Below, piece by piece: positions 6,658-43,099 of a stretch of DNA of 64,000 nucleotides (position 1 is its first letter; the number at the start of each line of letters is the position of its first letter). Below the pieces are notes generated by a model. It was given only the letters and a program-made list of their open reading frames with translations. It was not told where the DNA came from and did not search any database. This stretch comes from Pyrodictiaceae archaeon (GTDB taxonomy: Archaea > Thermoproteota > Thermoprotei_A > Sulfolobales > Pyrodictiaceae): positions 438,880-502,879 of the forward strand of contig JALVSY010000007.1 in NCBI GenBank assembly GCA_027036135.1, given 5' to 3'. Position numbers and translations under genes: made by a program.

Positions 6658-7419
6658 ATGAGCTTTAGAGCCATTTATCCCGCGGCTACGAAGTTTAAAT
6701 ATATAGTTCAGACACTTGCAAAGGTGATGGACGAGATACCCTTTGTAGCCACAGCTGAGGGGCTCGAAGTTAAGGCGCTAACGCCTGATAAAACTACAAT
6801 GATAATTTTACGTCTCCCATCAACTGTCTTTGATTCTTTTGAGTTAGCAGAGGAGAAGAAAACCTTCATAGTCAGTGCTGACGAGTTAAATAGGATTGCC
6901 AAGCGAGGTACACGCAATGATATTGTTGAGCTAAAACTTGATGAAGAACATCGTAGGTTAGAGATAAACTTTCACGATAAGAAGACAGGTGTAGTTCGGT
7001 CGTTTTATGTGGCTCTCCGGGAGGGCATAGTTGAGGAGCTAAGTGAGCCTCAAGTGGAACTGAGTGTTACTGCGCGCATGATGGCAGAGGACTTCAAGAA
7101 TATAATTAATGATGCTAAGATAGTCAGTGACGAGGTAGAGTTCAAAACATATGAGGATAAGATAGAGGTTCTAGCTGAAACTACCCAGAAACGCTATCGT
7201 GGTGTCCTGGTGCAGGGAGATCCGCTGCTTAGCTTAGATGTTAGTGGGAATCCTCCTATATCAGCTAAGTACTCTATAGATCTATTGAAGGCTACGCTGA
7301 AGGCGACGAGTGCAGCTGATACAGTAACCTTGCAATATGGAGAATCGCTTCCTATGAGGCTTAGCTTCGATCTACCTGGTGGAGGCATACTCGTGTACTG
7401 GGTGTCTCCTAGAATCTAA
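6658..7419 (+). CDS. pcn: DNA polymerase sliding clamp PCNA
   Basis: This 253-residue protein is an archaeal PCNA clamp that encircles DNA and tethers polymerase, FEN1, ligase and other PIP-box proteins. Recognisable features are the N-terminal FRAIYPAATKFKYIVQTL, the DKTTMIILRLPSTVFDSF strand set of domain 1, the interdomain region near residue 120, and the C-terminal LPMRLSFDLPGGGILVYWVSPRI, where the family ends its second beta sheet. Length is typical. Crenarchaea often encode several PCNA paralogues that form heterotrimers; which subunit this is cannot be told from the sequence alone. Its 3' end overlaps the convergent zinc-motif gene by four bases. Confidence 0.95.
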   Translation: MSFRAIYPAATKFKYIVQTLAKVMDEIPFVATAEGLEVKALTPDKTTMIILRLPSTVFDSFELAEEKKTFIVSADELNRIAKRGTRNDIVELKLDEEHRRLEINFHDKKTGVVRSFYVALREGIVEELSEPQVELSVTARMMAEDFKNIINDAKIVSDEVEFKTYEDKIEVLAETTQKRYRGVLVQGDPLLSLDVSGNPPISAKYSIDLLKATLKATSAADTVTLQYGESLPMRLSFDLPGGGILVYWVSPRI

Positions 7420-7655
7420 CTTCCTTCCAGTTTCCTCAGTAGTTCTTCAAGTGCTTTCTTTGCCTCTTCCTTTGTCTCTGTTACTCTAGGTACTACTCCT
7501 CTTAGTGAAGGAAACCAGGCTGGTCGAGGACACTGGTTTCGTTCTGGACAAGCTAGACAGCAATATGGGCACACACTTCTCTCGGGATGAAGCCAGCATT
7601 GACGCGTAGGTCTGTGTCGTCCACATACATCGCATCTTTCCCAATAGATGCTCAT
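7416..7655 (-). CDS. Small cysteine-rich (zinc-ribbon-like) protein
   Basis: This is an approximately 79-residue protein with cysteine pairs CDVC, CPYCC and CPERNQC in its first 40 residues, together with several histidines, which suggests one or two bound zinc ions. The C-terminal 30 residues are a charged helix (ETKEEAKKALEELLRKL). The frame is open upstream to 7706, but I prefer the ATG at 7655 because the cysteine motif begins right after it and a TATA-like stretch lies near 7690-7700. The family and function are not recognised. It converges on PCNA, with the stop codons overlapping. Confidence 0.6.
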   Translation of the reverse strand: MSIYWERCDVCGRHRPTRQCWLHPERSVCPYCCLACPERNQCPRPAWFPSLRGVVPRVTETKEEAKKALEELLRKLEGS

Positions 7656-7731
7656 TCCCGACCCCAGTACTCCTATTGATGCTTGAGGCAAACTAAAAAG
7701 GAGCAAGGCCTTAAAGTGTTATTAAACAAGT

Positions 7732-7739
7732 CTTATAAG
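7732..7739 (+). promoter_or_regulatory. TATA box before candidate small RNA
   Basis: CTTATAAG is a strong archaeal TATA box about 25 bases before the predicted 5' end (near 7760) of the structured element at 7760-7828. Confidence 0.45.
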
Positions 7740-7759
7740 AATACCATATAGATGGCTGA

Positions 7760-7828
7760 CCGATGATAAGCGGTAATCGCGGCGGGGTATATCTCTTACA
7801 AGAGCCCCGTGGAGTAGGCCGCTCAGAG
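7760..7828 (+). ncRNA. Candidate H/ACA-like guide RNA
   Basis: A GC-rich islet in an AT-rich intergenic stretch folds into one hairpin. The lower stem is AGCGG (7769-7773) with CCGCT (7819-7823). Then comes a symmetric internal loop of nine bases on each side (7774-7782 and 7810-7818). The upper stem is CGGGG (7783-7787) with CCCCG (7805-7809), followed by a five-base bulge, a CTCT/AGAG stem and a TACA loop. An AGA (7825-7827) lies about 15 bases from the loop, as an ANA box would in an H/ACA pseudouridylation guide. A TATA box sits about 25 bases upstream. A clear kink-turn is not visible. Confidence 0.4.
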
Positions 7829-7906
7829 GGATGATGCCGTTAGAGACTTCTCTAGCTATTTATTAGGTGTGTGCTATCCTCTAAGGGGTTAACTGAGGGA
7901 TAAGGG

Positions 7907-8287
7907 ATGAAGCGAATAACCATAGAAATCGATTTCGCGAAGTATAAATCAGTAAAACTTCCTAAGGATGAGGCCGAGAAACTCCTCCAGACACTTACCG
8001 AGATACTGGGTAAGAAGCCCAATGATATACAGGAGACACTTAGGTATATCAAGAACTTTGACGAGTTCTTTGAATATATGAGGAAAAAATTCAAGGACTA
8101 TCTCGCGCCACCGCATAGGGCTGATGACTATATTAGAGGTGAAGCAGTTGTTGACAAAGTTAAGTTGCTAAAAAGGAATAACGAAAAATATGTTATGATA
8201 ATATTTGATAGACGTGTTAAGGAAGACTTGATTAGAAAGGCTTTAGAGCAGCTAGGGTACGAGGTCGAAATAAAGAAGGTATTCTGA
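7907..8287 (+). CDS. Hypothetical crenarchaeal protein
   Basis: I do not recognise this 126-residue soluble protein. It is lysine-rich and appears alpha/beta: an N-terminal strand (KRITIEIDF), two helices rich in charged residues (residues about 20-65), and C-terminal strands with a helix (VMIIFDRRVKEDLIRKALEQLGYEVEIKKVF). The ATG is preceded by GAGGGATAAGGG. A TATA-like ATTTATTA near 7858-7865 would give a transcript start near 7890, supporting the start. It is convergent with the Rpo13-like gene. Confidence 0.65.
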   Translation: MKRITIEIDFAKYKSVKLPKDEAEKLLQTLTEILGKKPNDIQETLRYIKNFDEFFEYMRKKFKDYLAPPHRADDYIRGEAVVDKVKLLKRNNEKYVMIIFDRRVKEDLIRKALEQLGYEVEIKKVF

Positions 8288-42004: not shown

Positions 42005-43099
42005 GTGAATGGGTGGATGAGTCTCGAGCTTGCTAGGAAGGGTATAGAGTTCGTTAAGGGCCTAGACGAGTTTGCTGGGCTTAGCAGGAAGTGGCTTGTC
42101 AAGATAGAGGATGAGCCCACTAGCCCGGAGTATGGTACTCCTCCCTGGGAGAGGCCTATCGAGCAGCACATAAGGATGGGTGTTATTGCTCTCGATAAGC
42201 CGCCGGGCCCTACGAGCCACGAGGTAGTTGCGTGGATTAAGAGGATGTTTGGGCTGAGCAAGGCTGGTCACGGTGGTACACTCGACCCTAAGGTTACTGG
42301 TGTTCTCCCAGTAGCTCTCGAGGAGGCCACCAAGATTATTGGCCTCGTGGTGCACACTGGCAAGGAGTATGTCTGCGTGATGCAGCTCCATAGCCCTGTG
42401 CCGGAGCGGGAGCTACGCAAAGCAGTACAAATGTTCATCGGGGAGATTTATCAGCGCCCACCTCTGCGGAGTAGTGTTAAGAGGAGCCTCCGCACCAAGA
42501 AGATCTACGACATCGAGCTACTAGAGTACACTGGGCAATACGCGTTGATGAGAGTTGAGTGCGAAGCAGGCACCTATATGAGGAAGCTATGCCACGACAT
42601 AGGCCTAGTACTAGGCGTCGGCGCCCACATGAGGGAGCTGCGGAGGACGAGGAGCGGGCCCTTCCGCGAATCAAAGGGGCTTGTGAGGCTCCAGGAGCTA
42701 AGCGAGGCTCTTTACCGCTGGCGCACAGAGGGCAAGGACGACTGGCTGAGAAGATACATTCTCCCAGCGGAGTATGCTGTGAGCCACCTGGCCAAGATAA
42801 TTATACGCGACACGGCCGTTGACGCCATCGCCCATGGAGCGGATCTCGCTGTCCCGGGCATAGTCATGCTCCACGGGGGCATAAGGCCCGGGGACATGGT
42901 TGCGCTGTTCACTCTCAAGGGCGAGCTAGTAGCAGTAGGGGTTGCGAAGATGAGTAGCGAGGAGATAATGAAGGCTAGGAGAGGAATAGCGGCGCGGATG
43001 CGCCGAGTAATAATGAAGCCGGGAGTCTATCCACGGGCATGGAAGCGCAAAGAACAGGCTAGGGAGCAGGGCGGGGAAGCCAAGCCCGGGAAGGAGTAA
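42005..43099 (+). CDS. cbf5: tRNA/rRNA pseudouridine synthase Cbf5
   Basis: This is a 364-residue Cbf5 (dyskerin homologue), the catalytic protein of H/ACA guide complexes. The TruB-type motif [15 protein letters not shown] has its catalytic Asp at residue 94. Also visible are the thumb-adjacent [24 protein letters not shown] (in parts), [32 protein letters not shown] (in parts), and a C-terminal PUA domain (residues about 262-340) with [13 protein letters not shown]. The GTG start at 42005 follows GAGCG. Its presence makes H/ACA RNAs in the genome expected. Confidence 0.96.

Follow-up and report, generated by a model that had tools for sequence, protein, structure and literature searches.

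Results

A structured RNA and its neighborhood

The window, the whole stretch of 64,000 nucleotides analyzed here from a Pyrodictiaceae archaeon, carries at 7753-7839 on its forward strand an RNA element of about 87 nt that folds into a single rod, with an outer stem closing both ends. The fold has a minimum free energy of −30.1 kcal/mol, with a z of −1.98 against dinucleotide shuffles. The original prediction had placed an H/ACA-like guide and its promoter box at 7732-7828, and while that hairpin proved real, the element is longer at its 3′ end. The helix at 7769-7773/7819-7823 (then named the lower stem), the symmetrical internal loop (7774-7782 and 7810-7818), the helix at 7783-7787/7805-7809, and a terminal loop are all confirmed by the fold, and the gene for Cbf5 was correctly located in the window. 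In the features listed below, pairing and covariation refer to 63 aligned model hits, and motif counts to 61, as the weak hits L104 and L105 were excluded from the latter.

7719-7726, + strand: likely TATA element TTATTAAA; A+T fraction highest (0.84-0.89) at −31 to −29 relative to the outer stem, from an alignment of 63 loci
7753-7839, + strand: small RNA of ~87 nt, very probably a circularly permuted H/ACA-type guide (R1 covariance models and searches; covariation)
7753-7756, + strand: outer (terminal) stem, 5′ strand, partner 7836-7839; 87% of cells paired, two-sided changes at 4 of 4 pairs
7757-7761, + strand: non-bulged strand of the outer kink-turn (U-GA) and the C-stem CC (7760-7761) common to both kink-turns
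7762-7766, + strand: bulged strand of the inner kink-turn, GAU bulge and GA; NNNGA in 58 of 61 homologs
7767-7774, + strand: H/ACA upper stem (P2), 3′ strand; 8 nt in 55 of 61, two-sided changes at 7 of 8 pairs
7775-7782, + strand: 3′ guide arm AAUCGCGG, complementary to 23S 5′-CCGCGGUU (rRNA target scans)
7783-7788, + strand: H/ACA lower stem (P1), 3′ strand, CGGGGU; 94% of cells paired, two-sided changes at 4 of 6 pairs
7789-7791, + strand: ANA box, AUA in the window; ACA in 59 of 61 and AUA in 2 of 61, 14 nt past the pocket-closing pair in 58 and 15 nt in 3
7792-7803, + strand: variable linker loop from the ANA box to the P1 5′ strand; 6-21 nt among homologs, without conservation
7804-7809, + strand: H/ACA lower stem (P1), 5′ strand, GCCCCG (covariation)
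7810-7817, + strand: 5′ guide arm UGGAGUAG, its GUAG complementary to 23S 5′-CUAC; GUAG in 59 of 61 homologs
7818-7825, + strand: H/ACA upper stem (P2), 5′ strand (covariation)
7826-7827, + strand: GA, non-bulged strand of the inner kink-turn, originally counted in an AGA box (homolog motif counts)
7828-7835, + strand: outer kink-turn with C-stem GG (7828-7829), GAU bulge (7830-7832), and GA-U (7833-7835); GAUGAN is the commonest form
7836-7839, + strand: outer stem, 3′ strand (covariation)
42005-43099, + strand: Cbf5, pseudouridine synthase and putative user of the guide; Pfam TruB_N (1.7e-27), PUA (3.8e-24), and DKCLD (1.6e-16)

In the window, the outer kink-turn sets CUGA opposite GAUGAUG, and in most homologs it sits between the outer stem and a 2-bp C-stem that is 99% paired, with the variants CC/GG, UC/GA, and GC/GC; at locus L013, a plain helix (CGGCGUCC/GGGCGCCG) replaces it. 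The inner kink-turn (CC-GAU-GA opposite GA-GG) lies on the helix originally called the lower stem, and P2 together with the two G·A pairs makes 10 layers in most homologs. Half of the homologs have a non-standard pair at 7774-7818, which closes the pocket. Within 7754-7838, the two kink-turns have opposite orientations and share the C-stem (UGA-CC-GAUGA opposite GA-GG-GAUGAU), an arrangement whose outline recalls a bulge-helix-bulge.

In the window, the genes close to the RNA include those for PCNA, for a DUF72 protein, and for a small protein rich in cysteine. These neighbors recur at Acidilobaceae, Desulfurococcales-like, and f10 loci, and this common neighborhood across families points to vertical inheritance. 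The cysteine-rich protein (7416-7706, − strand, in the window) is without a Pfam match and is a neighbor of the RNA in other families as well; a second small protein without a Pfam match (7907-8287, + strand) has a relative at L067. One alternative would make the element a cis-acting leader of a neighboring gene rather than a separate RNA, as might be suggested by the Acidilobaceae loci L055, L060, and L067, where it lies just upstream of the cysteine-rich protein gene in the same direction. However, that neighbor is divergent in the window, L053, and L064, a difference in direction between families that argues against a leader, and the RNA has its own promoter signal; we hold this alternative to be highly improbable.

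Relative to the outer stem, 63 loci show two maxima of A+T content, one at −33 to −28 and the other at −12 to −6. The upstream peak in the window is TTATTAAA at 7719-7726, with a predicted start at about 7750-7753; the predicted transcript would therefore have the outer stem at its beginning, which places the permutation described below in the gene itself. The box first proposed as the promoter (CTTATAAG, 7732-7739) stands 21-14 nt before the stem, off the family peak, and was discarded. No conserved T-run was found at the 3′ end of the RNA in the 63 loci. Directly 3′ of the RNA, a short hairpin TTAGAGACTTCTCTAG occupies 7840-7855, with paired changes in L003 (AAAGA/TCTTT), and may be a 3′ end signal.

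Conservation and covariation

A covariance model (R1) built from 15 homologs was searched in 214 genomes of the order, and the RNA was matched in 61 of them, heat-loving archaea of five families (f1, f4, f6, f9, and f10), of which f1, f6, and f9 appear to correspond to Pyrodictiaceae, Acidilobaceae, and Desulfurococcales, respectively. DNA similarity also recovers homologs in related genomes. In an unfitted MAFFT alignment, 86.3% of cells are paired, with two-sided changes at 9 pairs and a covariation score of 0.270, against 0.131 when shuffled and at most 0.111 when the partners are slid. The 63 model hits give 91.1% paired cells, two-sided changes at 16 of 20 pairs, and a score of 0.484 (0.161 shuffled; at most 0.114 with partners slid), values biased towards the structure by the fitting of this alignment to the model, a bias from which the MAFFT alignment is free. 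Conservation and covariation of the hairpin are far above chance.

Outside the order, 398 genomes of the phylum yielded no hit for the permuted RNA below an E-value of 0.05. A pattern scan of GTDB contigs returned matches that were mostly chance, in bacteria. Because the wide searches had strict filters, families without a hit may hold diverged copies. Genome G084 carries the permuted RNA in two copies with differing stems (L095 301-385 and L098 301-391), which could be paralogs or reflect mixed strains in the bin.

Orientation of the guide

The usual view is that an H/ACA guide requires an open lower stem ending in an ANA box, which normally lies beside a free 3′ end. The orientation first proposed would give an ordinary single-hairpin H/ACA RNA, with 7769-7773/7819-7823 as the lower stem and AGA at 7825-7827 as the ANA box; the pocket is then nearly symmetrical, and the AGA lies 15 nt from it in the window's genome alone. 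Conservation refutes this arrangement: A-N-A stands at the AGA position in just 3 of 61 sequences, and what is conserved at that place is a GA that forms one strand of a kink-turn. The supposed apical loop is, moreover, short, variable, and without a kink-turn or K-loop, the kink-turn falls on the supposed lower stem, and the rRNA sites are inconsistent, being scattered with a best tally of 21 of 61 guides. The apical stem with a bulge is likewise not a family feature, since the length from the ANA box to the next helix varies (6-21 nt) and only the ANA is conserved. An ordinary guide in this orientation is therefore extremely unlikely.

In the rotated reading, A-C-A (59 homologs) or A-U-A (2, the window included) directly follows the CGGGG-Y strand of the other helix, inside the loop. 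Two helices flank an internal loop with two guide arms, which show bipartite rRNA complementarity around a U-N, and a kink-turn sits about 10 layers above the pocket, on the helix opposite the ANA side. The orientation of this inner kink-turn is that described for archaeal H/ACA RNAs. The separation of ANA box and pocket-closing pair (14 nt in 58 of 61 homologs, 15 nt in 3) and the layer count agree with the 14-16 nt ANA spacing and the 10-layer GA stem, or 10 base pairs in crystal structures, of archaeal H/ACA RNAs (PMC4652768; PMC7991803).

The covarying order in the 63 hits is upper stem-pocket-lower stem-ANA-loop-lower stem-pocket-upper stem. The ordinary order (5′-lower stem-pocket-upper stem-loop-upper stem-pocket-lower stem-ANA-3′, with the ANA near the free 3′ end) was tested and is absent, for which reason we do not class the RNA among the ordinary H/ACA sRNAs; it would function as they do, and the name that suits it best is that of a circularly permuted variant. 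With its ends at the kink-turn and a loop at the bottom, it satisfies the archaeal H/ACA rules and is therefore, very probably, an H/ACA core in circularly permuted form.

A permuted gene could also have a circle as its working RNA, ligation of the ends restoring a closed apical loop, as in the case of the Thermoproteus permuted SRP RNA. Circular forms are known for the C/D sRNAs of archaea and for a permuted SRP RNA (PMC3695527, PMC4731332), and the double bulge around the 2-bp stem has the outline of a bulge-helix-bulge. Nevertheless, the ends of a linear RNA are already held together by the terminal stem, which covaries, and the second bulge is missing in several lineages (L013, L014), so that there is no conserved cleavage motif. 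We regard a circular product as possible, albeit doubtful, and prefer a permuted guide that would work as a linear molecule.

Predicted rRNA target

In scans of the rotated guide arms against whole 16S and 23S rRNA, the U at 23S reference position 2683 ranked first for 51 of 61 guides and second for 8. We take this U, which lies in the peptidyl-transferase region, to be the equivalent of E. coli U2493, with the AUG at A2503-U2504-G2505 of E. coli as the point from which to count backwards. In the 23S gene of this genome, the site reads 5′-CCGCGGUU[UG]CUAC (L034:14237), and the pairing around the U-G comprises 8 pairs (one G·U) in the 3′ arm and 4 pairs in the 5′ arm, where the GUAG (7814-7817) forms the end of the arm; 1 of 2,000 shuffled versions of the window's guide did as well. 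The original prediction had staked itself on an rRNA match of the pocket arms, and it survives in this respect because the rotated reading ranks the same 23S uridine first for most guides, a consistency obtained in that reading only.

CCCCGCGGTTTGC is present in 17 of 17 23S loci read and is followed by TAC in all except G022 (L118, L077), in which the 23S gene has GCGAC instead of GCTAC and the guide still has GTAG. Many Acidilobaceae guides have one U·U mismatch to the target, and a few guides have an extra base. Position 2499 in the targets varies among A, C, and T, and the opposite guide base often follows (C with a guide G in G007; often a guide U in f1 genomes with A), which makes a co-change of guide and target at this position suggestive. 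In the guide of G013 (L083 301-389, − strand), CCAG replaces the GTAG found in nearly all other guides, and a matching change in its 23S target is possible. Arms drawn to include the closing pair 7774/7818 were rejected, as they give no U2493 hit, have a best site at 16S 491 with mismatches, and leave the conserved GUAG unexplained. The 23S gene at G000:C30 (L034 from 12502) is without its 5′ part, and no 16S gene was found in this genome's assembly.

Two other roles for the permuted RNA were weighed against pseudouridylation of this 23S site. It might guide modification at another or a second target, such as 16S near reference position 1081, which ranks first for 7 of 61 guides, including L101 of the ATCCGGGG group; yet the 23S site is first for 51 and explains both the conserved GUAG and the invariant A atop the 3′ arm, and we consider a different target unlikely. 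The two kink-turns and the strong 8-bp complementarity to the peptidyl-transferase region would also suit an RNA that binds L7Ae and assists the folding of 23S rRNA by pairing with it, with no pseudouridylation involved, but the conserved ANA box and its 14-nt spacing would then be left without a role, which makes a chaperone very unlikely in our view. A guide to the U2493 equivalent remains the preferred reading.

Ordinary-order relatives

The family rotated into ordinary order (R2 model) was used as a positive control. It matches ordinary-order hairpins with a kink-turn, pocket, and ACA in f7 (L119, L120) and in G007 (L136). Two of these, L119 and L136, independently lead to a single 23S site, GAC[UC]UCUUAAGG (reference 2111), when the geometry of the permuted guide is applied to them. 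G007 thus has guides of both orders. The hairpins at L136 1501-1576 (− strand; G007) and L119 1501-1574 (− strand; f7) are not in Rfam 15. As guides to the U2493 equivalent, the f7 and Pyrodictiaceae R2 hits were rejected, their target being another site, and no ordinary-order guide to that U emerged from the R2 search of families that lack the permuted RNA. A hit in G158 (L133) is without an H/ACA-like fold and was taken as chance.

Discussion

Our analysis indicates, with high confidence, that this locus encodes a circularly permuted H/ACA-type guide RNA with its own promoter and with the 23S U2493 equivalent as its predicted target. The original prediction of an H/ACA-type pseudouridylation guide is thereby well supported, although it was wrong in orientation, ANA box, kink-turn placement, and promoter. 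Like the single-hairpin box H/ACA sRNAs with a kink-turn of Pyrococcus and Archaeoglobus, the RNA has a 10-layer upper stem leading to a kink-turn of the same orientation, a two-armed pocket, a short lower stem, an ANA 14 nt from the closing pair, and bipartite rRNA pairing around U-N. Unlike in those sRNAs, its parts are rotated, its ends lie at the kink-turn side, and the ANA is in a closed loop rather than at the 3′ end.

Several other known systems share features with this RNA. The Pyrobaculum H/ACA-like RNAs (sR203-sR210; Bernick et al. 2012, via PMC4652768) are also crenarchaeal, with an atypical architecture and a kink-turn, but they are described as lacking a lower stem and keeping the ordinary order, whereas here a 6-pair lower stem is intact (94% of cells paired) and the order is permuted. 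Circularly permuted archaeal noncoding RNA genes are represented by the Thermoproteus SRP RNA (PMC4731332) and the Nanoarchaeum C/D sRNA24 (PMC3491384); these belong to other RNA classes and are reported to be active after circularization, in contrast to the covarying terminal stem that closes the linear RNA here. The outer kink-turn, with a box D-like CUGA and a box C-like GAUGAUG, recalls box C/D sRNAs, but the D-like CUGA (7756-7759) precedes the C-like AUGAUG (7831-7836), the reverse of the C...D order. No 10-12-nt guide beside a D box was recognized, and the rRNA match lies in the H/ACA-type pocket. Rfam 15 gave no family above the gathering score for the window and eight loci. No permuted H/ACA RNA was found in the open-access literature searched, and a 2023 paper on natural RNA permutations lists hammerhead and twister ribozymes, 5S rRNA, group II introns, tmRNA, rRNA, tRNA, and SRP RNA, with H/ACA not named (PMC10085705).

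The mechanism that we propose follows from placing the ends of the RNA where the apical loop of an ordinary H/ACA RNA would be, with the bottom closed by a short variable loop that holds the ANA box. Transcribed from its own promoter, the RNA would fold into a rod made up of the outer stem, two back-to-back kink-turns with a common 2-bp stem, the upper stem, the pocket, the lower stem, and the ANA loop. If the particle resembles known H/ACA particles, the inner kink-turn would hold L7Ae, and Cbf5-Nop10-Gar1 would contact the lower stem, the pocket, and the ANA box. Both arms may then pair with 23S 5′-CCGCGGUU[U G]CUAC, presenting the U2493-equivalent U in the active site for conversion to pseudouridine. 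We know of no structure in which Cbf5 accepts an ANA box tethered in a loop of 6-21 nt.

On balance, we think it probable, though with clearly less assurance than for the guide assignment itself, that this is the first natural circularly permuted H/ACA guide, a vertically inherited permutation at the level of the gene that yields a linear RNA; two kink-turns would lie back to back at the ends of this RNA, Cbf5 would accept its closed-loop ANA, and it would direct a predicted pseudouridine in the crenarchaeal peptidyl-transferase region. Gene finders search for the ordinary H/ACA order, and a permuted family would be invisible to them. If true, such a family would show that the enzyme reads the three-dimensional arrangement of the guide and not its strand order, and it offers a precise and testable prediction, a pseudouridine near the catalytic center of the ribosome in culturable archaea.
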